From positions 10,376,501 through 10,440,500 of the forward strand of contig NC_092020.1 of assembly GCF_042242105.1 (NCBI RefSeq): a DNA stretch of 64,000 nucleotides. The letters run 5' to 3'. Made by a program: the position numbers and the translations under genes. The first letter of the stretch is position 1, and every line of letters starts with the position of its first letter. The notes beneath the pieces were generated by a model that was not told the DNA's origin, searched no databases, and saw only the letters and a program-made list of their open reading frames with translations. The stretch is from Pempheris klunzingeri. Taxonomy: Eukaryota; Chordata; Actinopteri; Acropomatiformes; Pempheridae. This document shows, piece by piece, positions 4,756 to 58,796 of the stretch.

Positions 4756-5395
4756 TTAACCCTCCTCTCTGTATTTTTCCACTCACCTGCCAGCCACTCC
4801 CACCAATCAGCCAGCTCCCAGCACCTGTTCCACTCACCTGCTCCTGTTCACTCATTAAGCCAGTATTTAAGCCTTCACCACTCACTCTCTGCCGGACTGT
4901 TCTTTGCTCCTCCATGCAAGACTCTCCAGCACTCATTTCTAGACTGATCACGTGTTGCCAACCCAGCCTCTGTTCAGGTCATCACAACAGCCTTCTGTCT
5001 CTGGCCACGAGTTTTGCCTCTGTCCCCTCTGGATCCTGTCTGCTCGTGGCTCCCTGGCTTTCGGCTGCTTCGCTTCCTCTGCCTGGCTACAACTCTGTCT
5101 ATCTCGCCCTGTCCTCACCTGGTTCCAGACCCACTGTGTCCGTGAGCTCTGCTCCTGTTGCAGCCCTCACGGCACGGCCATCTCCCATTGAGCTGTCCTC
5201 TGTGTGTGAGCTCTCCTTCCTTGCTACACTAATCGGCTCACCGATCCGGCTCATCTGGCATTCTGGGGCATCCTCCAACCACAAAGAGACTCTGAACAAG
5301 GCTGTCATTCTGAACTACATTCACTTGCAAGCCAAGCGTAATAGAAGTGCCTTTTGAGCTTTTGCTGACATCCTGTGTGCTGCGTTTGGGTTATA
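4756..5395 (+). mobile_element. Solo-LTR-like interspersed repeat, copy B
   Basis: Second copy of the 1667-2253 element, with the same CCAATCAGCC box and TATTTAAG motif. It has extra sequence around 4970-5000 and 5060-5100 and a diverged 3' end that has lost AATAAA. The 5' terminus is replaced by CTG-rich sequence. The 206-codon open frame across it is not a gene. Confidence 0.45.
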
Positions 5396-5454
5396 AATAC
5401 CTGCTATGGAGTATATTTTGTGTTTAATGTACACTGTCTTTATATTTGACTGAT

Positions 5455-5625
5455 TAGTTTAACCAAAACCAGGATCTTTTCCTAAACCTAACCAAACTGA
5501 CATAAGTTAACTACATCCACAAATAAATAAATGTAGTAAGTATTGGTCTCACACAGGATTCAAACCCTAATCTCTACTGTTAGTCCAGAAACTAAACCAT
5601 TCAGCTACCACACCCACTTTGCATT
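5455..5625 (+). repeat. CCTAACCAA-type interspersed repeat
   Basis: Carries the CTTTTCCTAAACCTAACCAA core, also seen near 19700-19800 (reverse), 29370-29470, 31150-31215 and 60060-60135. It continues into a tail about unanswered accounts of ordered motifs (CAGGATTCAAACCC). Low-copy within the window; class unknown. Confidence 0.45.
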
Positions 5626-6499
5626 GCAAAAGGATTTATTGTTCCTTATGCTGCATAAGCAGACAGGGTGCAGATAGCCAGACTGCCACTATTAACAGGT
5701 GCAAATATGATTCAACTTTTTCCCTTGGTCCAGTGGTCCAAAGAGCCACAATGACTCGTAATATTGATTCACAATACTTAGAATTCATAATACATATGAA
5801 ATTGATACCCAAGTATCAAGATAATATTTAACTGGGGGATAATCATCCCAGCTGGAATCCCACCTACTGTTTATTATGTACACAGATGTGCATTTTACAT
5901 GTAGGAATCCTCCAAAATGAGAGGTGTATGCAGCTACTGTCATCATTGTATAATGGTTTATACAGGAAGTTGGTAGACATTGTCTGACCAGCTTCATTTC
6001 TTCATTTAATAAGAGTATAATATATATAATATAGAGTATAATAAATACAATAAATATAATAGTTTCCTACTGAAATTTACACTTCACATAAATATATCAA
6101 TGCATATCTGCCAACAAAATCATATATTTCAACCATGTTCCTGAATTCATTGAATAAAACATGATTTGTATTAGAAACACATTCAAAAAAAAGAAGTCAA
6201 ACCTAAGTTTGTCAGAGTGCAGTATCTATGCATATATGAATAATGTATTTGTATCTGGTTGAACCTGTGTCATGAATAGGCAAATGTTTTGCTGGCAGGG
6301 TTAACCGGACCACCAACAGTTTCCTGCCCAAAAATCCATCCAATGGAAGCCAAAAGCCAAAACTAGCAACTATTCAGTTGCAGAGCTTTGCATGAACAAG
6401 ATGTCAAGTTAAAACAAATCTTCTCCTTCGCACATATAAAAGGACTGTATATATGTTGTTACTGTGAAATACATGCAACTCAATCAAAAATCAATGGCA

Positions 6500-6690
6500 T
6501 GGACAGATTTAGCCTAGCTTAGCACAAAGACTGGAAGCAGGGACAACTGATAGCCCCGTTTAATTTGCAAGAATACGCCTTACAATGACATCAAACTGTC
6601 TTATTTTACGCAATTAAGACTATCAATAAAATAGATATAAAGTTGTCAGAAGGCTCTGAGAAATATTCCAAATGAAACACAAAATACATC
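6500..6690. repeat. Interspersed repeat related to 10409-10590
   Basis: Shares the AGCTTAGCACAAAGACTGGAA-type core (AGCTTGGCTTAGCATAAA at 10437) and the downstream pyrimidine/AT-rich tail with the copy at 10.4 kb. Likely an old non-autonomous element; no terminal repeats were resolved. Confidence 0.35.
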
Positions 6691-7668
6691 ATTTATCCAT
6701 GCTGTGTAGGGCGACACACTGTTTAGATGTGATGCCTTTATCTTCAGGACAACATCATCTGTCTGCGCTTTCTACAGCTGTTGCAAATCACTGTTGAAAA
6801 TAAATCCTTTTTTTGAAGTATCAGCATGGTTGGCGTTAGGGTTAGGCATCGGAGACACATCCACCAGCAGGCAAAAGGGGGACATGTCCTGCCACAATTC
6901 TGCCCCTCAGGCATCCTCCTGTGTTAAAGCCTGATGTATTGTTGATGTGCTTTCTAATAATGTCACCTGACGTCCTTTTTTTCCCCATCATAATTACTAT
7001 GGCCTTTGGAGGGTCCACTGCCCAGCAGTGATGGGGCCGCACCTGCTTGATGGATTTCTAATGTAAAGTCTTGATTAGAGTCAATAAGAAGAAGAAAATA
7101 TATGATAGTGACAAGCTGGGCGTAGGGATGGGGGCATTCTTACTCTCCTCCCTGATCAGCAAGTGGACTTTGCTCCATTTCTGTTGAACTAACCATGACA
7201 GGACTGAAAAAGTTTGTCTTCAGTGTTATTGTTTAAAGACATAATGGCCACTGTGTGGCAAAGGATAGTCCAGTCATCTCTCCATCTGTTCAGTCCGTAT
7301 TCTTTCTGTCTTTCATGCTGCCAGCTCTACTCTTCTGTATATCCCTGTGCTCTACAGTACAGTATGTCTGTATCCATCCTCCTTCATCCCTCCTCTCTTC
7401 TTTACCTCCCACTTTCTCCTTAAACCTGTATTCTCTCTCTCTCTCTCTCTCTCTCTTACTCCCTCCCACTTCATCTTCTTCTCCTCATGTATTTTTGTAA
7501 TACTTTATATTGTCAGTCTCATTGATACCAAACATTTCAAAATAAGATGCTCTGTTAATCAAGTTTAGTTTTTCCCTTTTGGTCTCTTCCTCCCCTTTAC
7601 ATCTCTCACTCTTTGTTGCCTAGTCTGCCTCCCTCTCTGTCTTGTTCTATTTCTAACTGTGTTGGTGT

Positions 7669-7712
<44 letters not shown>

Positions 7713-7825
7713 GTTTTCCACTCTGGAGTTTTTAAGAATTAAGATGTTTCATTAAGTGGCATCAAGAGTGAAGCCTCTCTCCCCCCTTTTTTTCTTGTCT
7801 TGCTGATAGTCGGTTGACTACAGCA

Positions 7826-7870
<45 letters not shown>

Positions 7871-8823
7871 GTGGCACTGGCTGGATGAGGAGAAAAGCCT
7901 CTGATGGCTCCAGTCACTCTCTCCTGAGCCTGCCGGATTAACTGGGACACACACACAAACACACAAACACACACACAGATACACAGGCCGCTCAAACGCA
8001 CAGAGACAAACCACACAAACATGCTTACAGTATGTATACACACAGCAAAATATATCTGCCAACTGTCCATGCATACATTCACATGCATACACCCCCCACA
8101 CACACATACACTGACATAAAATTTAAAGGCACAACACACACAAGAGAGAGATTTGTATACTGTATTTCAGATCACAGATTAAATCAACACAAACACAAAC
8201 ACAAACACACACACATACACATTTACACTGTAAGTGGATGCACATCCATACACACATAAGCCCACAGTAAAAAAAAAAGTGAAAGAAGGTGACACACACA
8301 CAAACACACACACACACACACACACAGATCTAGAAAGATAAATATGTTCTATCCATGCATGGCTACAAATAGACTAAATGCACAAATACACTCTCTGCCA
8401 TTGGTCATAGTGAGTTTGATTCCAGGAAGTGTTGCCTTGGCTGCTTTTAGTCCTGGACATTAAATATTCAAAGGGACCAATCACACGATTTAATTGAATC
8501 TGAGGCCCCTCCCTCTAGGGGCGACGGGCTCCGATCACAGCCAATTAGAGGCAGATGAGCATGACAGTAATGGGTGCTATCTGTTGGTCCCTCGGGAGAG
8601 GGAGAGCGGGAGAGAGAGAGAGACTGAGTGTGTGTGCACGTGCGTTTGTGCATGTGTGTGTGTGATAAGGTAGCTTGTTGTGCTTACCGACCACCCATCC
8701 ACACACACAGACACACAAATCCGCACATGGACATGCATGTGTACAGTATGTACACACACACACGCACACACAGACAGACACACTGAGACTTCAGTTCCTC
8801 CTTCAGCAATAATCATATTTACG

Positions 8824-8859
<36 letters not shown>

Positions 8860-9149
8860 AGAGAGAAGGGGGACATGCAAATCTACGTTAACCTAATTAT
8901 TCTGTTGGTCCCCTGTGTTTTCTCATTAGAACTCACCGCCAGCAGGGACCAGAGAGACAGAGAGAGAGAGAGACTTAGTGAGAGGGAGAGGGAGATTTAA
9001 TAAGGAGGATTGAGATACAAATGAATAGAAAGCAGAGAAAAGGAGTGATGCAGAGAGATGAGTGTTACAGAGACACAGGACAGCTTGTTGAAAAGTGTAT
9101 GAGCCAAATACTCCCAGAGTGAGTCATGACTGAGATTTCTTACCAATTT

Positions 9150-9184
<35 letters not shown>

Positions 9185-9330
9185 CTTTCTGTGTTTATAG
9201 TTTATAGTAAAAGTTTATAGTTTTGCCATACAATAATTTATTTTAGATTTTGTAGCTTCTATTAAATATCAAGAAAGAAATTAAACTTGACTGGGGTACT
9301 AAACTATGAAGACACTTAAGAGTATATATG
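6691..9330. other. Microsatellite-rich intergenic block
   Basis: (TG)n at about 7674-7708 and 7831-7869, CA-rich 7945-8330, (TG)n 8826-8857 and (CA)n 9154-9182, plus GA/CT tracts (7436-7455, 8590-8622, 8957-8995). All open frames here are made of these repeats. No gene is supported. Confidence 0.6.
7831..7869. repeat. (TG)n microsatellite
   Basis: About 19 pure TG units within the microsatellite-rich block. Confidence 0.95.
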
Positions 9331-9338
9331 TCTTATTC
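9331..9338. repeat. Left target-site duplication of hAT element
   Basis: TCTTATTC, matching TCTTCTTC at 10142-10149 at 7 of 8 positions. This is the 8-bp size typical of hAT insertion. Confidence 0.65.
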
Positions 9339-10141
9339 CAGTGGCGGGCCACAAAAGAATTCAACAAGTCACCAAACACTCTAACCACCGACTCGGCTCC
9401 AAACACAGAGTCGTTCAGTTGCCAATACCAGGCGTTCTCAGCAACACAATTTGCTCCTCGGAGCCTGTAAGCCGAGGGTACCGCTCGTAGTTGCTGACCT
9501 GAAAGTGGCGGATGAACCCGACAGGCTTGCTAGCTTCGGGGTGGGCCAGCATTTCCTCAAAATGTCCAGCTTTTCTTGGAAAGTCCGCCTTGAAAATGGA
9601 TTTCTAAGTAGATCTGCGACCAAATTAACATCTTCTCCTCCGTCAGCCGTTGTGGATTAAAAAAAACTGCTATTAATACTTACGATTATGATAAAGTTTT
9701 AGCTCGTGCAGGTCGCTACAGATAAGAATCGCTAGCTTTGGCTAAGCTCTCTGATCAGCCAATCAGAGGACGTGAAAATACTAACGTCATCGTACGCCTG
9801 CTAGAAGGCCCTGGGGTCACCAACTCAAAATCTGATTGGTTAAAGCAACAGTTTAATTGCGATGTATTTTAAGCTACGGGCGCCTGCACTTTTGATTCTG
9901 AAGGCCTCAGGGCAGATTTCTTTGACCCTGGCAACACATGATGGCTGATAAAAGCTCTAATATAGACATACACTGCTGGAAGCCCCCCAGCCCAGAGACA
10001 CAGAGACACGCTATGAAATGAAGAGCATAGACTATTAGGAATAATCTAAAATGATTAATGGGAAAATATTAAAACGTAAATCAGTGATTCTGAGTTTAGG
10101 CCAGCAGAGAAGGCCTTGCTGGCCCTGACGGCCCACCACTG
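9339..10141 (-). mobile_element. hAT-superfamily DNA transposon derivative (803 bp)
   Basis: Both ends are visible. The left end is CAGTGGCGGGCCAC and the right end, read in reverse, is CAGTGGTGGGCCGT, giving inverted termini flanked by an 8-bp near-identical duplication. Inside, on the minus strand, 9438-9623 encodes a stretch with the motif NPFSRRTFQEKLDI. That motif resembles the N-terminal part of ZMYM1-like/DUF4371 hAT transposases, just before the TTF-type zinc-finger region. The frame then breaks near 9440-9360, and no catalytic core is present. It is therefore an internally deleted, non-autonomous copy. The class is inferred from termini, duplication length and protein remnant together. 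Confidence 0.75.
9438..9623 (-). pseudogene. hAT transposase N-terminal remnant
   Basis: About 60 codons of a ZMYM1/TTF-type hAT transposase N terminus (NPFSRRTFQEKLDI, then a PTPKLASLS-like motif). A frameshift and stop follow where the conserved Cys-rich region should be read. Only a fragment survives, so it is not functional. Confidence 0.6.
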
Positions 10142-10149
10142 TCTTCTTC
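10142..10149. repeat. Right target-site duplication of hAT element
   Basis: TCTTCTTC, partner of 9331-9338. Confidence 0.65.
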
Positions 10150-10408
10150 ACATGATTCTCAGCATTATATTCAGGATGTGACAACCTTCACAGAGTGAAG
10201 TCAAGCAGATTGACACAGCAAAGCAGATTGCTCAACCTCAACATGACTAAACCCTTAATGCCCCAGTAGCAATAGACAAAAGTGTTTATTAAATGTGTTG
10301 TTTTTAGGTACAGACAGAAGAAGATTCCTCTGAACCCACTGGGGGGCCTTAAAGTAGAATGAATGATAGGGCTCAAAGAGATCTCCCCTCACTTTCTTAG
10401 TCAGTTGA

Positions 10409-10600
10409 GAAGATTGATAGAGCCAGGAAGCAGTTAGCTTGGCTTAGCATAAAACAGGGCCCTGGAAACAGGACAAAAGCTGTCCTGGCTCTGTCCAAAG
10501 GTAACAAAATCCACCCACTAGCACATCTGAATCATTAATGAAGCATTAATTAATTAATTGTTTGTTTAAGCCGTAAAAAGACACATGAGGATGAGGAAGC
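10409..10600. repeat. Interspersed repeat (GGCTTAGCATAAA type)
   Basis: Contains CTGGCTCTGTCCAAAGG followed by a core and AT-rich tail common in teleost genomes, as far as I recall. It is related to 6500-6690. Ends are not resolved. Confidence 0.4.
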
Positions 10601-11204
10601 CAGAAGGTCCTGAGGAGTGGACTAAAACATTTTTGATGACTACACATTCATCAAAATGATAGGGGGTTCATTCTCTTGCATTATTTCTTGTGGTAACTGA
10701 AATTTCTGAAATAGGCTTAATTTATTCATACTTCATTGTTATTGCAATGGACAAGGATGACACAGATAGATGTGTAGATGTACAGATAGTACAGAACAGT
10801 AGTCTATGCCAGTGTGTTTTGGGAATAGGGGAAAAAATAATTCCACAAATATTTGAGAGGAAGCAGACAAGTTGTGGAAAAAGGTAGAACAACCCCAAGT
10901 GATAATTCAGACAGGGAACTGCACCAGCAGGAACTTCAATCTATTTTCATCACAGTTTAAAACAAGATCATCTGTAATACACCTGCAATATACTGTAGAG
11001 AGGACAAATCCAGAGGAACCAGGCTGTAAGTACAATATTCTATTGTTTTCATTCTGTTTGAGAATAAACTGATGGATCGTTGATGCACTTTTGAACTTTG
11101 AGAGTTGACTGCACGTCAACCAAGTATCTTACTTAAAATGTTTTTCATCCTACTTCCTATTCATACATAGTTTTGGTTCAAAATAACTGGTAGGTGCAGT
11201 TAGT

Positions 11205-11545
11205 TTTGGAATTGGTCCAGTAGATCTGGGAGCCACAATGGGCTGCAATGGCTGCAATGTAATCCTTTGGGGCAACTGCGTCTGATCAAAGCACGTCCAT
11301 TAAAGATCCACTGCTTGTTTTGCCACTTGCAGAGTAAGATTGTTACTCTAAGTGTCTGACAACATTATTAAAGAGGTCTACAGAGACAAACCTTTTTATT
11401 GAAGGTTAAGATCCTTTCTGTTTAACCAGAAACAGCTGATGTATCGCTTTTCTCAAAGCCTCCAGACTCCATTGACAAAAACAACAATTTTACCTCGCAG
11501 ATCACAAAAAGTTCTGTCTCTGTAGAGGCCCTTTCCATAATGTGC
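11205..11545 (+). repeat. 'GGTCCAGTAG' repeat family, copy 1
   Basis: First of at least five copies sharing, in order: TTGGTCCAGTAG, a GGGCTGCAATGG block, CAACTGC-TCTGATCA, GTCCA-TAAA, CTAAGTGTCTGACA, and a tail with CCAGACTCCATT. Other copies are at 39245-39342/40331-40410, 47879-48160, 50285-50445 (reverse) and 51505-51690 (rearranged). No coding capacity. Probably a non-autonomous DNA element. Confidence 0.55.
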
Positions 11546-35014: not shown

Positions 35015-36552
35015 TGAACGTGTGACTTCCGTTCTTCCTCTCGGTCCGCAAGAACCATGTGCTGTAGGAGGCCACGAGACTCTCCGGTAGAAGTGGTGAG
35101 TATTTCAGCCTCTGGTGAGAACTGTTGGCGGAACAACGCTAAGAATTCTGTTATTGGCGGAAATAATGGCGCCAGAGCGGGACCCATTCAGCGGGAAGCT
35201 TTGTGACGCTGCTGGAAGGAATGGTGGTCTGTGTGAACTCTGTTCAGTGGACTGGATGTAAGAGAGCAACGTGGTGCGTTCACGTTCTGCATTGAAAAGT
35301 ATCAAGCGTCCTCGGTTGTTGGCCGTTTATTTCTTTCAATGCAAGAGAAAAATGCACCATCAGTATATAGAGCACTTATGGTTATTCATTAAAATGCAAT
35401 AGAATAGTTCCACTTTATACATGATGACGATATATTAATTTTTTTTTTTTTTCTTTTTGAAAAGCATCGAGGTTTGGGAGAATGGATTGTCCCCTTGCCT
35501 ATGAGCTTTCCCTCCAGTTGTGGCTGTGGGAGATATGGAGAAACCTCAGCTTCCTGAGAGGCACCTTTATCACCTTTGAAGCTACTTGGTAAGTCTATGA
35601 ATGAGTAAACTGCAGTCACTGAACTCACCAGTGCTGCAGATGCACCAGTTTCTGTTTCTTGACTGGTTGTAACTGTTGCAGGCCTAACCCTAACCCTTCT
35701 TCAGCACTAATGTGACTCTGATGTTTCCTTCAGAAATGCTGTCCCCTGAACAATCTTCAGCTCAGAGCAGCAGCTCTAGGATAGCCAGCACCCGGCCCTG
35801 CCTTCTGGGACTAAAGGTAAATGCAGATTAACAGTAGTGGGTCTTTCCCAGGCTCTAATAATTTGGGAGCGACCATGTGGTGGTCATGTGTGTGTCTCCC
35901 CCCCCACCAGCGCTCAGTCAGCTGGCCAGGCTTTGTGTGTGCCTGGCTCAGTGTTACAGTGCTGGTAGAGGAAGTCTCTGTACTTTGTCTCAGCTGTGCA
36001 GGTTTTGTTTTAGAGTCTGTTGCTGCTGAGCTGTTGCAGAGCGTGGCCCAACGAGAGTGGCCTGTCCTGATCCAACAGCAGGGCAGGCCTAGTATAGGGC
36101 CACACATTAATAAATTGGTCCAAGGCAAATGCCTTCAAAATAAGTTTTCCATGAATTGACCTAGAGGCCTGTATTTGGTCTACACACCATTGATTGTGCC
36201 AGGCATAATCAAACATGTTTGTACGTTAACAGAATTTGAACAAATAATGCAGTTGCTTGTTAGAAGTCTTCCAATGGTCCAGTTTTAAACTAACCCAGCC
36301 GGTACTTTACATTAGACTAGGCAAAACCTAGCTGCATGCACTCACTCCATGGGACTCCCTTCCATTTGACAGGTTGGCTCAAAGTGGAATCAAATTGCTT
36401 TTAGATCCCAGACATGGTAACGAACACAAAAGTAAACTTGTGACCTGAAGTCTTTTCCTTGATTGTGTTGCAGGTGGGGGCCCTGGGCTGCTCAGTGTGG
36501 AGCTGACTGAGGGTGAGCACGGCACCAGTACTTTCTATATAATCACTTGTGT

Positions 36553-39244: not shown

Positions 39245-39342
39245 ACCTCTGCTGCAAAACGGTTGCAGCGTGATCCTTTGGGACAACTGCACCTGATCAC
39301 AGTAGGTCCACTAAAAGTGCTTGTTTGATCCACTGACAGGCT
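39245..39342 (+). repeat. 'GGTCCAGTAG' family, left half of interrupted copy
   Basis: Matches the other copies up to GATCCACTGACAGGCTCA. The continuation expected from the reverse copy at 51500-51690 (GACTGTTATTCTAAG) is found instead at 40331 after about 1 kb of inserted repeat. Confidence 0.6.
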
Positions 39343-40330
39343 CAATTCAATTCAATTCAATTCAATTCAATTCAATTCAATTTATTTTGTATAGATTCAA
39401 GATTCAAAGATTCAAAGCGTTTATTGTCAAGTGTACAGTGCAGAAACGGGTTTCCCTGTACAATGAAAATCTTACTTTGCCATCCACATTGAATGCCAAA
39501 GAGTAAAAAAAGAAGAGGATAGAATAAAATATAAAAACATATAAATATAAACTACTATTGCTAAATAAACTGCTATTGCTTAACATATAAATATATTTAC
39601 AAAATGTGCAACTTAACATAAAGTACAGTCAATGTGCAGATGAATGTGCAGATTAGAGGTAGTTGTGACTCCTATCGGCTGTTAAGGAGCCTGATGGCGG
39701 AGGGAAAGAAGGAGTTTCTGAGTCTGGACGTCCTGTGCTTCAGACTCCTGTACCTCCGGCCTGAGGGGAGGAGAGTGAACAGTTTGTGTTGGGGGTGGGT
39801 GGGGTCCTTGATGATGGAGGCAGCCTTCCGGTGGACTCTGTGTCTGTAGATGCTCTGCAGAGAGGGCAGGGGAGTCCTGGTGATCTTGGACGCAGTCTTC
39901 ACCACTCTCTGCAGGCGTTTACGATTCATGATGGTGGTGCTGTATAGCCCAATATCACAACAGAGTTGTCTCACAGTGCTTTACAAAGTTCACTGAAATA
40001 AACAAGAAGTGTAAGCGAACAAACAATCTAATAAAGAGTCCAGCAGTCGATGAGGCCAATGGATCAGTCCGATGGATCAGTCCGAGGCATCACCTGCCCT
40101 TTATGACCCTTCTTCGAGAAGGAAAAACTCAAAAAACCCAGTGGGAAAAGAGAAACCTCCGGGAGCACCACAATGAAGGAGAGATCCAGCTCCCAAGGAC
40201 GGACAGGCTGTAGCCTTGGACAGATGCACATCCATTGGCTGATGGAGAACCACATCAGTGGGGCCGGGATCAGGACCCACAGGAACCAGAGAACCACATC
40301 AGCAGAACCAGGACCAGGACCCACAGGAAC
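39343..40330 (+). mobile_element. (ATTCA)n-led interspersed repeat, itself interrupted
   Basis: Opens with (ATTCA)n (39343-39381) and TTTATTTTGTATAG, is interrupted by a LINE at 39395-39940, then resumes TATAGCCCAATATCACAACAG-like sequence through GTGCTTTACAAAG and AAACCTCCGGGAGC to about 40330. It matches the common teleost repeat that starts with AATTCAATTC and encodes nothing. Confidence 0.55.
39395..39940 (-). mobile_element. L2-like LINE 3' fragment with target duplication
   Basis: On the minus strand 39935-39672 encodes an ORF2 C terminus: RVVKTASKITRTPLPSLQ, then IYRHRVHRKAASIIKDPTHP, LFTLLPSGRRYRSLKHRTS and FFPSAIRLLN. A 3' untranslated end follows (CATTGTACAGGG...TGACAATAAA read in reverse) with a GATTCAA-type tail at 39395-39415. 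It is flanked by TGTATAG on both sides (39388-39394 and 39941-39947), an apparent 7-bp target duplication. 5'-truncated, as is usual for LINEs. Confidence 0.7.
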
Positions 40331-40410
40331 CCAGTGTTATTCTAAGTGTGTGACAGCATTATGGAAAGGATCCCTACAGAGAGACCTGGAAGATCCTTTA
40401 AGTCCTCTGC
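40331..40410 (+). repeat. 'GGTCCAGTAG' family, right half of interrupted copy
   Basis: TGTTATTCTAAGTGTGTGACAG and AAGGATCCCTACAGAGAGACC continue the copy that stops at 39342. Confidence 0.6.
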
Positions 40411-47600: not shown

Positions 47601-48695
47601 AGGTAACTGGAGGGTCTTTATATCCTGCTGTTAAAGACGGACTCATAGTGGGTGTTTGATAAGCTCATTTCAGTACATTCAGACCTGACATTTAAACTTG
47701 AACATGTCGACATGAAAAAATTTAGAAATGAACATTTAACAAAGTAAAATAACAAATATTGAAAAAAAAAAAAATCTTTTTGGCTTCTGGTCAAAACTAT
47801 AGTAGGGTGGTGGGTAAATAAGAACTTCCCTGTTTGTACATATTTTGGCATCTGGGAGGTACAGTATAATGTTTTTTAGGAATTGGTCCAGTAGGCCTCA
47901 GTAGCTGTGAAACAAGCTGCTATGGCTGCAACCTAATCTTTTTGGACAACTGCACCTGATCACAGTAGGTCCACTAAAAGAGCTTGTTTGATCCACTGTG
48001 TGTGACAGCATCATGGAAAGGATCCCTACAGAGAGAGACCTGGAAGATCCTTCTGGTTTAACCACAAACAGCCGTTATATCGCTCTCTGACACACACACA
48101 CACCAGACTCCATTCACTAAAACAATAACTTTACCTTGCAGAACACAGGACAGTTGCTGCCTTGATTGGTCAGTTTGTTTGTTATTGCTAGTTCAGATCC
48201 GAACTAACCCTTCAAAATACCAGTCATATAAAGTCTTGTGCTTTTATTTTGTCAATGGAGTCTGGTGACTTTGAAGAGGGCAACTTAACGGCTGATTAAA
48301 CAAAAGGGTCTTACAGCTTTAAAAAAATCCAGCTTTCTCGTTAAACTCGTGAAAAATTAAAAATTTATTACAACTTTGGTTTTATTTCTGTCGTTGTGGT
48401 TCTGTGATTCATGGAGATGTTTTACTCACCAAGATAAATGCTGAGATCTCAGGTTGACCAGGGGAGCAAACAAGAGCAGTCAGATGATCGGACAGGTTGT
48501 GCTTAAGAAAGTCTTTCTAATATTCCAGTGCCTCACGGTAACTGGCAGGAATCCATCAGATGTAGGCTAGTGACAGCATCAGTGTTGAATGAGGTCCAGC
48601 AGCAGACTGACTCTTCTGTCTGTCTCCGTCTGTGTTAGGAACAAGAGAACCAGAGACTTCAAGCCCTCCTGAAGAAGAACGGCATTGACTTTTGA
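44660..48695 (+). CDS. hvcn1: Voltage-gated proton channel 1 (Hv1/VSOP)
   Basis: Five coding exons join in phase: 44660-44833, 46117-46221, 46308-46539, 47351-47463 and 48639-48695, giving 226 aa. Exon 1 encodes a short acidic cytoplasmic N terminus. Exon 2 holds S1 ([19 protein letters not shown]) with the Asp that is the proton selectivity determinant (Asp112 in human). Exon 3 holds S2 ([17 protein letters not shown]), S3 ([16 protein letters not shown]) and S4 ([17 protein letters not shown]) with the three voltage-sensing Arg. Exons 4-5 encode the C-terminal coiled coil (Leu heptads; ends KKNGIDF) that dimerises Hv1. The channel exports H+ on depolarisation, notably in phagocytes. There is no separate pore domain, as is normal for Hv1. 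The first extracellular Zn-site His (in VFHY) is kept, but the second (human His193) is Asp. Start chosen at the ATG matching the family's M-A/S-R-[FY]-L-K opening. Confidence 0.95.
44967..44974. repeat. Left target-site duplication of hAT element
   Basis: TAAAGTAG, identical to 45624-45631. Confidence 0.9.
44975..45623 (-). mobile_element. hAT (ZBED-type) non-autonomous element in hvcn1 intron 1 (649 bp)
   Basis: Termini TAGTGATGGGAA and, in reverse, TAGTGATGTGTC, flanked by a perfect 8-bp duplication. Subterminal GAGCCGGCTC-rich palindromes lie at both ends (44998-45060, 45540-45590). On the minus strand about 45450-45330 is a decayed BED zinc finger: [20 protein letters not shown] followed, after a frameshift, by a segment corresponding to STNNLHRH-type sequence. 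No catalytic domain remains. It lies between coding exons 1 and 2 of hvcn1. Confidence 0.85.
45624..45631. repeat. Right target-site duplication of hAT element
   Basis: TAAAGTAG, perfect partner of 44967-44974. Confidence 0.9.
47879..48160 (+). repeat. 'GGTCCAGTAG' family copy in hvcn1 last intron
   Basis: GGAATTGGTCCAGTAGGCC, GACAACTGCACCTGATCACA, GATCCACTGTGTGTGACAGC and CCAGACTCCATTCAC in the family order. An inverted scrap of the same end (CAATGGAGTCTGGTG) follows at 48255-48270. Confidence 0.6.
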
Positions 48696-49732: not shown

Positions 49733-52700
49733 TCAAACAAACGGGAAGAAGAAGTCAAAGGGCAGTTTGGCGTCGATGGTGGGCGTGGCTCTGTAACCAG
49801 GAAGAGCGGGTGCAGAAACTGGTGTGAAAGCCACTGAACTCCTGACTGACAGGATGCTGCTGCCTCCAGATAACAGGGCCTGTGGGAGAACAGGCCAGTC
49901 ACACACACACACACAAATAATTAGACTGTCATTTACTTTCCTCGTAAAGCCTGCATGTGTCCCGCGTGCCCTATGTGTGAAAAGGTGAGTCTTACCAAAC
50001 TGGTGGTGTTGGTTTGGATTATCTCTTTGATGCTCACAATCTGAGCTTGGGGGTTCACCAGGGATCCATAATTAGTCCATTCAATGTCTAAATGAAGTGA
50101 TAGTGGGATGCTGCAAGTCTGCGCTTCCTGCAAATCACAAACATACTGCTTCATTGTGGCCTCCCAAACCACAGAGCATATAATAAGTACATATACTGAC
50201 GTGTTTACTACATGCTCATTTAAAGGGAAACTGGAGAATTTTTGTTTTTAAATTTCACCCAGAATTCATACATTCATACACAGTCCCACATTGTTCTCTT
50301 CAGTCTGAGCCTGTCTGTGGCTAAAACAAGCTGTTTTAGTGGACGTACTTTGATCAGGTGGACTTGGCCCAAAGGATCACGCTGCAGCCCATTTGGCGGC
50401 TGCCGGCTGTAGTGATCTATTGGACCAATTCCAACATCTACCAGACATTTTGAATCTGAAATATGTAAAAATGGGGCTCAGGCTTAAAAATACAGGAATT
50501 ATCCTTTAATCATCTAAATTAGTAACAAAAAATATATTTTAAAAAATAAGCTTGTTGGACTCAACTTCAATCAAATGTGCAGAGAGCAGTGTTAGAAACA
50601 CAAATTACATTTCTGTCTTATTCTTTATCAGGAGACTGATTTGGAAACACCCTCAATATGTGAAAAGCCCTGATGAGCGACGGCAGAAAGGTTAAATAGG
50701 TTTGACCATCTCAGACAATCAGTCTGGGATCAAATGTCATACATATCCACAAAGCAACACACACTGCAAATACAATAGGCAATGAAAACAGGAAAATTAA
50801 ATACATGAAATAAATCAATTGAAATAAACAAAATAAGAAAAACATGAAATAGTGAAGAAACTAGTGAGGACTACTTTTTATCCTTTCATTTTAACTTACA
50901 CCTCTCCCATCATATTCAGGACCTGACCTGACAGACCTAAGACTCCTCTCTGTTTTCAGTGTGCACTCACCAGGGGACCCAGGTTGTTCTCAATTGTCAC
51001 CCAGTCTAGTGGATAATCTGCTGGTGAGTTTCCAAAGGAAGCCACAATTTGGGGATAGTTTGGTCCTCTCAGAACGCCCAGAAGCTCTTGAAAGACCAAG
51101 GAGCAGTTGGCAACATCATCCAGTCTACAGGGACAAGACAAGTTACCTTCACATATGTATTCAGACACAAGGAAAGACTGTAGCAGTACACAGTGAGCAG
51201 ATCTGATGAGTGTGAGGATGTCCCGCCTTAATGTGCAGCCGGACACAGAGTCCAGACCAAAAAGGACAGGGGAGCGCTGATGTGGTCCCCTCAGACAGTC
51301 CTGGTCATCAGCACCCTGGAGAACAGACAGAGTGTCCCTGAGGTCGATGCTTCTGGCAATCCCAGTGACGACAGCTGTTAAGGACAAACCCTGGGCCTCG
51401 AAGCACATCACAACATCAGCCCCCTGTCATCAGACCGTGTCACAAGGAGAACTCTGTCTTATTTTTATAGATGTGGGTGTCTAAATGACTGGTAGGTATA
51501 AAAAGTGTTGGAACTGGTCCAGTAGCCAATAGCCACGAAATGGGCTACAACTGCACCTGATAGTACATAGAGTACATCCACTGAAAGTAGGGATCCTTTC
51601 AATAATGCTGTCAGACGCTTAGAATAACAGTCTGAGCCTGTCAGTGGATCAAACAGCACTTTTAGAGGACCTACTTTGACGTTCAGCTCTCACTGCTGCG
51701 GTCCAGGCACATCTTTAAAATGTCACAGTCTATGAATGTGGGTGAGGGAAGCCAGCGTTCGGGCAGGAAAGGGAAACGGTAAAGGATATTCTGCCGTTCT
51801 TGTTCCAGACACAAGAGGGAGTCCAGCCACATAACCTGGATTTCCACTGAAGTGGACAGCCTCCTCCTGCCCATCCTGGACACAAGACAGAGTACATTAC
51901 TCACATTTAGTCCCAACAATATTGTTTTCATTTATTGCATTTATAGTTTGCACAGGACTGTAATGTGACAAAAACCTATGGGTGAATTATTTGAACACCC
52001 CTTAATGAGTGGAGGTTAAGTCTACGGCAAGTCTGCAGAAGAACTGTGAACTTTCACTTTGCAACCCCCATAGCCATCATGGTGCCAGCACAGGATAGGT
52101 TGAGTGCTGTGGACGGCTCCATCAGTGGGGTAGATGTCATAGCACCTCTAAATATAATACTCCTCTGTACAAGGTGAATGTTTGAATGTGAGTTTATTCA
52201 GATCTTTGTTGGGGCAAAGTTTTAACCGTGACTTCAATAATAATGTCCCCCTGATAACAGCAGAAGTAGGGTTGCAGTGTTATTAGACGACATACTGTGT
52301 GATGTAATGTGACAGTAACGGGGGGGGGCGTCACATTGTGTTTTTGTGTCCAAACCCCTTTAAAAGTGAATTCTGAGGTGTGTAGGATCAAACTGTGCAG
52401 GCTGAGATGACGACAGCAGCCAGAAGCAGAGGCTGGGATGTTGGCAGTGCGGTGCTTTAGAGTAACTAACAAGAAACACTACAGCGCTGCCATCACAACA
52501 GATCTTTGTAGCATAGGTTCCCACTGGTGGCATTCGGGTTGCCACGGAAACGAGGTGCTCATTATATCTACAAATGTTCAGCTTAACTAAATAAAAAGTT
52601 GAGAGCGACTTTAATCGTAAACTGTTATTATCTGTCAAACAGTTTCCACTGCAGTAGGTACCAGTCTGTTTCCTCTCTTCTTTGTATGTTGTTTTGTTTC

Positions 52701-55700
52701 ATTGCCGTTGGGTACCACGACCACTATTTAATGCAGATATAACCCCAACTTCATGGATAACACTCCATGATACACAGAGGAAGTCTTGTTAAGATGGTAC
52801 CTGGACAAATGTGATATGAAACTGCTGTTCCAGGGTCAGCGCTGCTTCATAGACAAATCCAAGCACCAGGGACACGGTCACATTCACTATCTCACCAGCT
52901 GGGTTGTACTTCATCACATAGACAACCTGAGGAGATAACAATGTCCAGCTGGTTATCATTAGAAGACTTTTCAGGTGTGTTTGTTTAGTGTAAAGCCTTA
53001 GTTCTTGAGAGCACACTTTTGTCGTATAAAGTGATGAAATATTATTGCAGCTTTTAATTGAGAAACGTGGATGAAGACAGTCATGTGTTGCCTCACCTCC
53101 AGCACCACGTTAGCACAGAGGCTCGGGCTCAGGGGGACGGGGCTGAGGCTCTCTCCACCACCGATCTGTAGCTCTGTCTGAGTCCCCTCCACAGACTGCA
53201 GGATGACTGAAGCCACCTCCACAGGAACAACCTCCAGCAACGTCAGAAACACCCAAGTTAGTCCACTGTCATTAACAGTTTACATTCTTCCTCTGCTCTC
53301 ATTTACAGCACTTTACAGTTACACTTTGTATATTGGTGGGGATAGCGACGCCAGAGCTGTCCATGGTGATAAAGGGTGAATCCTAATCACTTTCATGGTC
53401 TCTTGATTTTCCTCTGGCGCCACTAGCAGGTTGAATCTGTCAGCCATTTGACTTGCAGATATGTTATTAGTACTGGACATCCATGTTTGTTGCCATAAAA
53501 TAAAGGCAGGCAGGATGTCCACTGTGATTGGCTACGTATCTCAGTTAAATTCCAAGCTCCTGCTGGTTGATTTTCATACCATACTAAAATGAATATGAAT
53601 CCGTGGAAGGTCAGAAAACATTTTAACGGGTCTAAGACACTACCCGTATGGCCTGATTAAACAGAAGGCTTAAGTGCAGTGTGGTGTCGTAACTGACTGA
53701 TTCCTTCTTTGTGGGAACTGGGCACAGTGAAACAAATGTCATGTTCCTGCCTTTGCATTGCAGCAGTTAACCACATGTTATTGCACTATGTGGGGCCTTC
53801 CTATTCTTTTTGAGCAAAAACAATGTCAGTGTCTTGCTAAATTTGCTGGTTGGCCGCTGGCTGTGTTGACATGTGAAAGTTCTAAACACAGACTTGATTA
53901 TATTAGAGCGGCCAATAACACGATAATACCACAACGCTTCCTCCAGCTGGGTATCAAAACACTGAGCTGGGAGGTCATTATGGGATGTGGAGGCTCCAGG
54001 GGCATAGCTTCCAAGACACATATCAGCTGGCAAAGACAATCACAACGTCGGGTAATGTGGCGTATAACTCACATCATGGAGAACCTGCGAGGCTTTATAC
54101 TCACATGAAGGCGTCAGTTGCATTACATGTGTTTCAAGTTTGTTATGAACCATGGCACCATTACAACTCCTTTAATTCATCATCAATTACTCGGGCCTGT
54201 ATTTTCTATCAGAAAACATCCAACTGACTCAACTAATTAACTGACTAATTCAGAGTTTAACAAAAGTGGTTATACTTACAGCTGCATCTTTGTTCTTCCC
54301 CTGTAGAGTGGAGAAGGTTTGGTTTAACATCTTTAAAAGAAAATTTCTCTGTGTTGTAAGCATTTCCATACACTCTAAATAAGGATATGTCTCCTGCAGG
54401 GCATCAAGCAGCACTCACTGATATTATCTGAGACAGTGGGAGTGTCTGAGCTTGTTTAGCAGTATGTGGCAGAGGAAATGTGGGACTCACAGCCAAGAGC
54501 TGGATGTCAGTATAGGTGTCCATGCTGAGGGCAGGCAGGGTGCTGCAGTCCTGATCCAGGATTACACGCCTGGAACACCGAGTGCTCTGATCCTTCAGGA
54601 ACGCTGGGGAGGAACAGGAAAAATGAAGCAACAATATGCATAAAAAATGAAAAGCACATATTTTATGAGCTATTTTAAGCATATTTGAAATAATACAATA
54701 TATTGAAACAAGATGATAGTATGGTGTAGTTCTTAAAATGTCAAACTATTCCTTTAACAGACAAGAAATGAGCCTTCTTAACAAGCTGTTGCAGTAATAA
54801 TGGGTGTAATAGTCTTAATATAATGTAACTGACTGTGTGATCCAGATGTTACATACAGATGTTACAGGGACTAACTCACACTCAAAAGCCTTTACTGTGT
54901 TTCACTTTTAGTGGAGTTAGACTTTGTACATTGTCTGTTGTAGGTTGTATGTATTATGACAGCAGTCATGTGACATGTCCATGAGTAACTTTTGTTGGTC
55001 CAATAGAAATAGAACACCCGTAGCTGACCATGTTGTTAGAAGTTGAGACTGTGTTGGAGGTTGTCTGCTTATCATTCAGCTTTGTGCCTGCATGGCTTTC
55101 ATCCAAACTACACTTAAGTTAGCCAGGAACACCCGGCCTACTTGGATCGCTGAGCAAATCAAAGATGTGGGTGGTGAGTCAGAGGAATGGAAGCAGGCTA
55201 AATTGCTGTAGTTTTTGGGGGTAGTTATCTCTGCAGTGTAAGCTTAGGGTGGATGCTTCAAAAGGCACCACGAAACATTTGAGAGACGTAGTGACACATT
55301 CTGCCTTTTCCAACAGACAACTTGAATTCATAAGAAACAAAATACAGACGTACTCAATTTATATGCAATTAGCTAATTTTGGATAGATGATGCTATGTAA
55401 CATTACAGAGTCTGACTTTAGGACCCTTCTATACTGGTGTGTTTTAATATTCATAATTATCCCAGTTCATAATCTCATGTCACAGTGAGGAGTGGTTACC
55501 TGCAGGACTGGTGTCCACGCAGTCAGCAGTGACCCCAGGAGCTGGCAGCCAGAACATCCCACTCTGCCCACCGTCTCCAACTGTCCCCATCACATCCCCG
55601 TACTGAAACCATCAACCATCAGCAGAGAATCAGCAAATGATCTGATGACAAGTTAACAAGTGTAAATGAGACAGACAGTTTCCCTCGCCTGGTATCCAGA

Positions 55701-56713
55701 CACGTGGAGCTCTGCAGCGGGATCCTGGCTACTGTTCTCCTCTGAGCCGAAAAGAAAACTGGTAAATTTTTTAAAGAGCGAGTCAAAGTTGCTGTCAGTC
55801 GGAAGAGTGGGAGAGGGATGAGATAATCCATCGACACCTAAACAAAACACACAGTCAGTGGCTTGTTAGTGACAGAGGTATCAGCCCACAGGCACGTTCT
55901 CAAGTCATTCAAACGAAGACCATTAACGACTTACGGTTCCGCGAGTGAATGCAGAAGATGTCATAATTAGTCTCCCTATGGACAGAAGACTGAAGCTCTG
56001 AGTAACCATCTACTGTACTCCCTAAAGAGTAGGACGCTACTTCATGGCTGCACAGCTGCTTGTTACCACTGCAGACAGAAACGAACAAACACCAAGACAG
56101 ATGTGTAGATCAGACACAGTGAACTGAGGAGCGCAGAAACAGGAGGTCATTATTTAAATCCACATGAATTCTAAAATAGAGGCCGGACTCCATAACTACA
56201 GAGAACCAGGCGTTGAAACACCCTTCATTTCAAATGTCCTTCACTAATTCCATCAGCACAACAGTCATGTGACACTTGCCACTCTGCTGCACTCACTTTG
56301 TCAGAAATGACTTCCTGTCACTTCTATTTTGCATGGTTGAGAACTGACAGTAAATTAAGTAAACTGTCTGTTGCTTTTTCAAATTTTACTTTTGAATAAT
56401 TAGTACTGGCATGTAATAAATAAAGATTGATTGATTGCTATCTATAAAAGCTTGGTTTTGTAACAACTTTATTACTGTTTCAGGTCTACTCGAGCCCGAG
56501 CCTTTTGCTGTGTCTCTCCTGCTGAAGCACGGTCAGGACAGGACACCTGGCATGAGGCTTGAAGCAGGAGGCAGCTGGCCGGGAGAGACTTGCCTGACGG
56601 TGTGGGTCGAGCAGCGGGTGAACAGAGCCACCTCCTCACCACAGTCTCTGTCGCAGCAACAGTTGATGTCACACACATCCCTGTGGTTGTCACAGGGACA
56701 TAACCTGTCAACT

Positions 56714-56772
<59 letters not shown>

Positions 56773-57539
56773 CAGTTCTCAGGTCAGAGGGAGGCTTCCA
56801 CAGATTGTCTGTTTTACACTTCCTCCATCTTAGTGGGAACATTGAAAGTCGACCTAAGACAGCTCCCTTCTTCCTGTGGCCTAGCTGACGGAGACATGAC
56901 CTCACAGTGGTGATGGATGAATGAACATGGCAGCTGTGTGTCATTTGACAGCTATCAGCACAGTTACCTCCATCTATGATGTGTTTATGTGTGCACAGGG
57001 ATATTTGAAGATATGTACAATTTAGGTATTATTTTCAAAAGCAATGGCATTTTGCTTTATGTTTTATGTGAATGCGTCGACGTGTATAATGTGCACGTAA
57101 GAGCTTTCTCTTCATTCAGTCACATATTTGAAATGCTTTGCTGTTTTAGACCTGACACAACAACAAGCAGTGTATCAGTATGCTAGCACTTTAATATCAA
57201 GCATGTGGTCGACATTGTGCCGCAGTGGAACGGCAGCTTACCGCTGGAGACGGGGGTGAGCAGGCGGCCGGAGACGGGCAGGGGCTCGGCGGGCAGGGTG
57301 GGTCGGACGGGCTCCTGTGTGCTGCTGGGGCTCGCTGTTTGGGTCGTGAGCTCAAACTCCGCAGGCTCCACTGTAGTTAGGAAAGAGTCCGTGACCCCGT
57401 AAGTAACGTTCTGCTCATAAGACGCAGTCGTTTCCAAGTTGTAACTCGTTGTATTGTCGTTTGTCGTGACGGCGGAGAACAGGAGAAATAAACTGAAGAG
57501 GTTTGAGGGGCGGCAGGGTGCAGCACCCGGGGCAGCCAT
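49733..57539 (-). CDS. tctn1: Tectonic-1, ciliary transition-zone protein
   Basis: Fourteen exons (minus strand, first to last): 57539-57242, 56711-56594, 56068-55935, 55837-55689, 55602-55500, 54603-54491, 54330-54280, 53231-53097, 52926-52801, 51875-51790, 51364-51227, 51124-50971, 50127-49996, 49879-49733. Every junction keeps phase; the total is 627 aa. Exon 1 gives a signal peptide (NLFSLFLLFSAV) and a Thr/Pro-rich stretch. Exon 2 has the Cys cluster CPCDNHRDVCDINCCCDRDC. Later exons hold the tectonic domain (SLCANVVLEV, FSGNPGYVAGLPL, QDCLRG-SPVLFG, IEWTNYGSLVNPQAQI). The end is KLPFDFFFPFV, as in human TCTN1. It acts in the transition-zone MKS/B9 complex needed for ciliary membrane composition and Hedgehog signalling. 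Intron 10 is AT-AC, and introns 2, 4 and possibly 11 are GC-AG. If intron 11 is not spliced, 34 codons are added in frame. Confidence 0.93.
50285..50445 (-). repeat. 'GGTCCAGTAG' family copy, reverse, in tctn1 intron 12
   Basis: Reverse orientation of the family: TTGGTCCAATAGATCACTAC, GGGCTGCAGCGTGATCC and GTCCACTAAAACAGC read on the minus strand. Confidence 0.55.
51365..51789 (-). other. tctn1: U12-type AT-AC intron (tctn1 intron 10)
   Basis: On the minus strand the donor is ATATCCTTT (51789-51781), a perfect match to the U12 AT-AC consensus. The branch motif TCCTTAAC (51384-51377) lies 13 nt before the terminal AC (51366-51365). Splicing here joins GA and T into an Asp codon and gives GTRTADGIARSID, colinear with the tectonic-1 family. 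No GT-AG alternative keeps the frame: the upstream exon otherwise runs to a stop. Confidence 0.88.
51505..51690. repeat. 'GGTCCAGTAG' family copy, internally inverted
   Basis: 51505-51580 is the left end in forward orientation. 51590-51690 is the middle in reverse (TAGGGATCCTTTCAATAATG, AACAGTCTGAGCCTGTCAG). It lies inside the AT-AC intron of tctn1. Confidence 0.55.
55687..55688 (-). other. tctn1: GC splice donor, tctn1 intron 4
   Basis: Minus strand TACCAG/GCGAGG. It joins in phase to TACGGGGAT at 55602, giving GYQYGDV, as the family suggests (human has a similar E-Y-G). A weak GT donor 15 nt upstream (CAC/GTGTCT) would drop five residues. Confidence 0.6.
56592..56593 (-). other. tctn1: GC splice donor, tctn1 intron 2
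   Basis: Minus strand GTCAG/GCAAGT, the ideal GC-AG donor. It joins to the acceptor CTGCAG/TGG at 56068 and gives CSTHTVSGNKQLCSHE in frame. Confidence 0.8.
56715..56764. repeat. (CA)n microsatellite at tctn1 exon 2 acceptor
   Basis: About 25 units. On the transcribed strand it is (TG)n directly followed by TCAG, the acceptor of exon 2, so it stands where the polypyrimidine tract should be. Confidence 0.95.
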
Positions 57540-58030: not shown

Positions 58031-58042
58031 AAACCAAGAAAG

Positions 58043-58460
58043 TCACAGACCACCACAGACCACACAGACCACCAAGACTACCACAGACCACACAGACCAC
58101 CACAGACCACACAGACCACCACAGACCACCACAAACCACACAGACCACCACAGACCACACAGACCACACAGACCACCACAGACCACACAGACCACCACAG
58201 ACCACCACAGACCACACAGACCACCATAGACCACACAGACCACCACAGACCACCACAGACCACACAGACCACCACAGACCACACAGACCACTACAGACCA
58301 CACAGACCACCACAGACCACACAGACCACCACAGACCACACAGACCACACAGACCACCACAGACCACTACAGACCACACAGACCACACAGACCACTACAG
58401 ACCACACAGACCACCACAGACCACTACAGACCACACAGACCACCACAGACCACACAGACA
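58043..58460. repeat. Minisatellite of 9- and 10-bp units
   Basis: About 45 tandem units made of CACCACAGAC (10 bp) and CACACAGAC (9 bp) in irregular alternation, with a few point variants (AAGAC, TACAGAC, ATAGAC). No stop codons form in several frames on both strands, giving a false minus-strand frame of 160 codons. Confidence 0.95.
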
Positions 58461-58796
58461 TAGTGCAGATATTATCCCTCAGTTAAACAGCGAACTTTTC
58501 CTGCCGTGACCTCTGACCTCCTGTCTCACTCTTTAGTAGATGCAGTCTGTAGAATTTAAACATGTTTATATATTACAGGTATTTCTTGGAATGGCTCTCT
58601 TTCTCTCTCCCTCTCCTTCTTTCTCTCTCCCCCCCTCTCTTTCCTTGCAGTGCTTCCTGCCCCTCACACTACTTAATCAATTCTCAGCGGCCATTAAGAT
58701 GGTGTGGACCGGGCAACTGATAAATATATTCAATCTGAGTCTTTGTGGATAATATCCAACTGTCAGGAGGAGACGCACACATGCACTGTTGATGGT

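Follow-up and report, generated by a model that had tools for sequence, protein, structure and literature searches.

Intron 10 of the tectonic gene tctn1 of the fish Pempheris klunzingeri (51365..51789, minus strand; 425 nt, phase 2, between coding exons 10 and 11) is, judged from its letters, almost certainly a genuine U12-type intron of the AT-AC subtype, which would be cut at AC and removed by the minor spliceosome. A preliminary description of this DNA had proposed such an intron, and U12-type AT-AC is still the best reading. We base this conclusion on an exact donor, an exact branch site, a spacing of 13 nt and an AC end, which occur together once in the window (the whole 64,000-nt stretch of DNA that was analyzed) against 0.04 expected, and on the full-length tectonic protein (PF07773) that splicing yields.

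The tctn1 gene and the motifs of intron 10

The tctn1 model lies on the minus strand (49733..57539) and has 14 coding exons, whose open spliced frame encodes 617 aa with the C-terminus FFFPFV. These are exons 1-5 (57539-57242, 56711-56594, 56068-55935, 55837-55689 and 55602-55500), exons 6-9 (54603-54491, 54300-54280, 53231-53097 and 52926-52801), exon 10 (51790..51875; 86 nt, or 28 codons plus GA, with the 3' letters GCAGA), exon 11 (51227..51364; 138 nt, starting TGGG) and exons 12-14 (51124-50971, 50127-49996 and 49879-49733). In Pfam the protein scores 127.1 bits for the tectonic domain PF07773 (cut-off 22) and 53.1 bits for PF25752. We name this paralogue tctn1, not tctn2 or tctn3, because hvcn1 adjoins it and because of its C-terminus: the tail-to-tail neighbor at about 44.66-47.5 kb, one exon of which reaches 24.1 bits as Ion_trans (cut-off 25), reads as what we take to be hvcn1, and HVCN1 presumably lies close to TCTN1 in human.

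Searching the genome (646 Mb, 439 contigs) with the tctn1 protein gave 13 matches at E <= 0.01, all 13 inside tctn1 itself; at this threshold the genome thus contained no spliced tctn1 retrocopy showing the exon junction. Among solved structures no relative was matched at E up to 10, and none of the 12 stretches in viral contigs that fit a peptide pattern encodes a relative. Some 0.5 kb before the start codon of tctn1, at about 58040-58500, there is a tandem repeat with TTDHTDHHRPPQ-like units in open frame. The window also holds a SNORA74-family H/ACA snoRNA (35906-36108, plus strand, 97.5 bits).

Nine of the 13 introns in the model are GT-AG, three are GC-AG and one is AT-AC, making four of 13 non-canonical. 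The preliminary description called AT-AC introns very rare, in agreement with the share of 0.106% of animal introns given in the passage cited here (PMC7072748). The GC-AG introns, all on the minus strand and given here with their donors (a slash marks the junction), are intron 2 (CAG/GCAAGT; 56069..56593), intron 4 (CAG/GCGAGG; 55603..55688) and intron 11 (AAG/GCGGGA; 51125..51226). The same source puts GC-AG at 0.983% of animal introns, a rate at which three or more among 13 have p = 2.5e-4 under independence, in a post hoc test. Intron 11 is the least certain of the three, because it is short (102 nt), in frame and stop-free; its excision is nevertheless favored, both by the Pfam profile (38.8 bits when excised, 32.6 when kept) and by the paralogue on contig C20, discussed below, which would have an intron at the matching position, likewise in phase 2.

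U12-type introns have the 5' splice site [AG]TATCCTTT and a branch site near TCCTTRAC. According to the preliminary description, the donor, the branch site and an AC end at 13 nt were all at consensus in intron 10, and letters and coordinates are indeed exact. The 5' splice site ATATCCTTT (51781..51789, minus; context AGA/ATATCCTTT) has no mismatch to [AG]TATCCTTT; the branch site TCCTTAAC (51377..51384, minus) is likewise exact, its branch A being taken as 51378; and the 3' terminal AC (51365..51366, minus; end GTCAC) places the last base 13 nt from the branch A. A passage on U12-type introns gives 11-13 nt as the optimal distance from branch site to 3' end (PMC6717393). Scored as a major-type donor with a weight matrix, intron 10 receives -11.2 bits, compared with 1.4 to 10.3 for the other 12 tctn1 introns. 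Positions -2 and -1 of exon 10 read GA and so are not AG; absence of AG at these exon positions has been described for minor introns, in a passage that speaks of GU-AG ones (PMC10853781).

The donor is the sole exact [AG]TATCCTTT in the window on either strand (one seen, 0.92 expected), and the branch site is one of five exact TCCTTRAC on both strands; no second exact donor/branch-site pair was found anywhere in the window. Chance expectations were taken from 200 first-order Markov sequences, with one strand simulated and the result doubled. Under looser, cumulative rules the pair counts in the window are near chance: one seen against 1.01 expected for an exact donor with at most one branch-site mismatch, three against 1.64 for at most one donor mismatch with an exact branch site, 30 against 32.1 for at most one mismatch in each, 26 against 18.2 for at most two donor mismatches with an exact branch site, and 337 against 379 for at most two donor mismatches and one branch-site mismatch. 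Besides intron 10, the only pairs in the window whose donor is one letter off and whose branch site is exact are 40373/39672 and 40373/39669, which we rejected as U12 introns as they start GGATCCTTT, without T at +2. A further one-mismatch donor, at 54388, was also set aside; it lies within intron 6 and has no partner exact branch site.

The 12-base pattern ATATCCTTTACC is common in the genome, at 45 places, with 82 for the reversed control. Intron 10 contains an interspersed repeat (51457..51679, minus; matches at intron positions 111-203 and 240-333, about 44%), partial copies of which lie at 50301-50472, 47960-48029, 40323-40377, 39297-39344 and 11155-11372.

Choice of junction and spliceosome

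The AT-AC junction joins the 28 codons plus GA of exon 10 exactly to the T of exon 11, a restoration of the reading frame that the preliminary description counted in its favor. The join itself stands, but its weight as evidence is slight, because 80 donor/acceptor pairs around the gap keep the frame open into exon 11, and we do not accept it as proof of the AT-AC junction. Nor does the Pfam profile single out the AC site: among the nine of the 80 in-frame pairs that were scored, AT-AC reaches 38.8 bits, compared with 41.1 for AT-AG ending at 51353, 38.7 for the weak GT-AG pair 51777/51353 and 27.6 to 37.6 for the remaining six.

The alternative that survives best keeps the same U12-type intron but places its main end at the AG at 51353..51354 (minus), as an AT-AG intron, or uses both ends as an in-frame pair. 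This end is open and in frame, with four fewer residues in the protein, and its Pfam score is the slightly higher one; moreover, alternative U12-type 3' site usage, lost on RBM41 knockout, is described for human TCTN1 in the passages cited (PMC11039992). However, the AG, 12 nt downstream of the AC, lies 25 nt from the branch A, compared with the optimum of 11-13 nt (PMC6717393), and the AC, at 13 nt, comes before it. We therefore regard a main or shared end at the AG as unlikely.

That a major-spliceosome intron with poor GT-AG sites spans the gap, the U12 motifs being there by chance, is very improbable. Several GT-AG pairs across the gap are open and in frame, and 51777/51353 ties with AT-AC on Pfam, but 51777 scores -6.9 as a major-type donor. 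The best GT or GC donor between the start of exon 10 and 51726, before the in-frame stop described below, is 51835, with 3.8 bits, and it cuts a SGNPGY motif that the C7 paralogue has too; stronger major-type donors inside intron 10, at 51693 (4.5 bits) and 51674 (6.8), are both beyond that stop. Against this reading also stand the exact donor/branch-site pair, unlikely by chance, and the similar U12 motif pair that the C20 paralogue has between matching exons. Removal of an AT-AC intron by the major spliceosome is less credible still: such U2-type AT-AC introns exist as a rare class in sodium-channel genes, but have G at +5 in the account cited (PMC2831892), where intron 10 has C; intron 10 also matches the U12 type exactly at its 5' site and at its branch site.

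On the preferred reading, that of a U12-type AT-AC intron cut at AC, ATATCCTTT and TCCTTAAC would be recognized by the U11 and U12 snRNPs, U6atac would take over from U11 at the 5' site, and cutting at the AC 13 nt beyond the branch A would join exon 10 (..GCAGA) to exon 11 (TGGG..). In a message retaining the intron, the frame continues for 22 codons after the final complete exon 10 codon before it meets an in-frame TGA (51723..51725, minus), after residue 449. As this stop precedes three later exon junctions of the model, such a message would be expected to undergo nonsense-mediated decay, or else to yield a tectonic-1 that lacks about 190 residues of its native C-terminal end. Skipping of exons 10 and 11 together (224 nt) shifts the frame; exon 11 alone, at 138 nt, is a multiple of three. 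With its AT-AC subtype and predicted premature stop, the intron could make this transition-zone gene an easily read indicator of defects in the minor spliceosome.

Tectonic paralogues and minor-spliceosome snRNA loci

A genome search with PF07773 returned four matches, two in tctn1 and one each on contigs C20 and C7. The best independent support for tctn1 intron 10 as U12-type comes from a putative U12-like GT-AG intron in the C20 paralogue (8103-8199 of stretch L028, or C20:11718602-11718698), which lies between exons matching tctn1 exons 10 and 11. This intron reads CCT/GTATCCTCA ... TTCCTTGAC ... GCAG/ACC over 97 nt, with 14 nt from branch A to end and a 3' part, up to the junction, of TTCCTTGACGGTGAGTTAGCAG/ACC. 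The branch site agrees exactly with consensus, the donor departs from it at two positions (+8 and +9), and the reading frame is kept across the join. In phase the C20 intron differs from tctn1 intron 10 (0 compared with 2), and the C20 junction is about nine residues off in a gappy part of the alignment; we counted both differences against the best explanation of the tctn1 intron. The C20 intron could also end three bases earlier, at an AG (branch A + 11), and other phase-0 GT sites occur in the exon before it, at 8046, 8058, 8070 and 8094.

Near the same place the C7 gene has an ordinary major-type GT-AG intron (7854-7958 of stretch L030; 105 nt, donor CAG/GTGAAA, phase 1). A scan of positions 5000-10500 of that stretch for a U12 intron found no pair with an exact branch site; three loose U12-like pairs, all of them two letters off in the donor and inexact at the branch site, were rejected. 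We label the C7 gene tctn2 because a V-ATPase a-subunit gene (PF01496) lies near it, human TCTN2 presumably adjoining ATP6V0A2, and the C20 gene tctn3 by elimination.

A tentative explanation, which we find possible but rather doubtful, is that the minor introns of tctn1 (AT-AC, phase 2) and tctn3 (GT-AG, phase 0) descend from one ancestral tectonic minor intron, the subtype having switched and the phase shifted, and that the tctn2 counterpart turned major-type (GT-AG, phase 1). If true, minor-spliceosome control would have persisted in two of the three tectonic paralogues since before vertebrates. Comparing the paralogues gives a small model in which to follow long-term changes of subtype, phase or class in minor introns.

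The genome has loci that match the U11, U12, U4atac and U6atac families, with scores above the cut-off in covariance-model searches. One match each is listed for U12 (128.7 bits), U11 (118.9) and U6atac (135.2), and there are two U4atac-like loci (96.9 and 83.1 bits), at C10:6006811-6006936 and C24:1135370-1135498. The ends of the genome's own U11, U6atac and U12 can pair with the donor and branch site of tctn1 intron 10, in runs of 6, 6 and 7, in free register and with G-U pairs and one bulged A permitted. Such pairing is not discriminating, because one of 12 control introns, that before exon 3, equals or exceeds intron 10 for each of the three (6, 6 and 9), and we discarded pairing as an arbiter of the junction.

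Tectonic genes among published minor-intron genes

Passages of three papers (PMC6717393, PMC11039992, PMC13216214) place mouse Tctn1 and human TCTN1 among the minor-intron genes, so that the tie between this ciliary gene and the minor spliceosome, to which the preliminary description drew attention, is already published for the mammalian gene. One of these papers names both TCTN1 and TCTN2 as minor-intron genes, and reports that reduction of the minor-spliceosome protein ZCRB1 affects ciliary genes and leads to cilium loss, in human cells and zebrafish (PMC13216214). TCTN1 and TCTN3 also come up where minor-intron genes and domestication are discussed (PMC6865273). These papers already count mammalian TCTN1 and TCTN3 among the minor-intron genes, and with a minor intron in TCTN1 and a link between minor splicing and cilia both known, the point is not a new one at the level of the gene. 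What the fish gene and the comparison with its paralogues add is modest; tctn1 intron 10 provides a clean fish case of the connection, already in print, between minor splicing and genes of the cilium. In open-access literature text, supplements apart and as far as the passages reach, we found no mention of a minor-intron site common to tctn1 and tctn3.

The minor intron of human TCTN1 and mouse Tctn1 resembles that of fish tctn1 in gene and intron class, and alternative splicing around the mammalian one is published; the passages of these papers state neither its position nor its terminal dinucleotides. An introductory passage puts at 91% the share of human minor introns that are conserved in zebrafish (PMC10639083). 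Fish intron 10 and the minor intron of mammalian TCTN1 are most likely orthologous. For tctn2 the comparison runs the other way: the scanned part of the C7 tctn2-like gene has a major-type intron, whereas human TCTN2 is called a minor-intron gene (PMC13216214).

Mouse Tctn3 has an evolutionarily conserved U12-type intron, and its human orthologue is enriched in ZRSR2 CLIP (PMC10853781); this passage concerns GU-AG introns, and the U12-like intron of the C20 paralogue is likewise GT-AG. Within P. klunzingeri, the GT-AG, phase 0 intron of the tctn3 paralogue thus differs from the AT-AC, phase 2 intron 10 of tctn1. The main text of a study of CENATAC, supplements apart, names no TCTN gene (PMC8280824). 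In its passages A-type AT-AC termini make up 24% of minor introns, and it is the CENATAC-dependent AT-AC/AT-AN (A-type) minor introns described there whose AT-AC termini intron 10 of tctn1 shares (PMC8280824).
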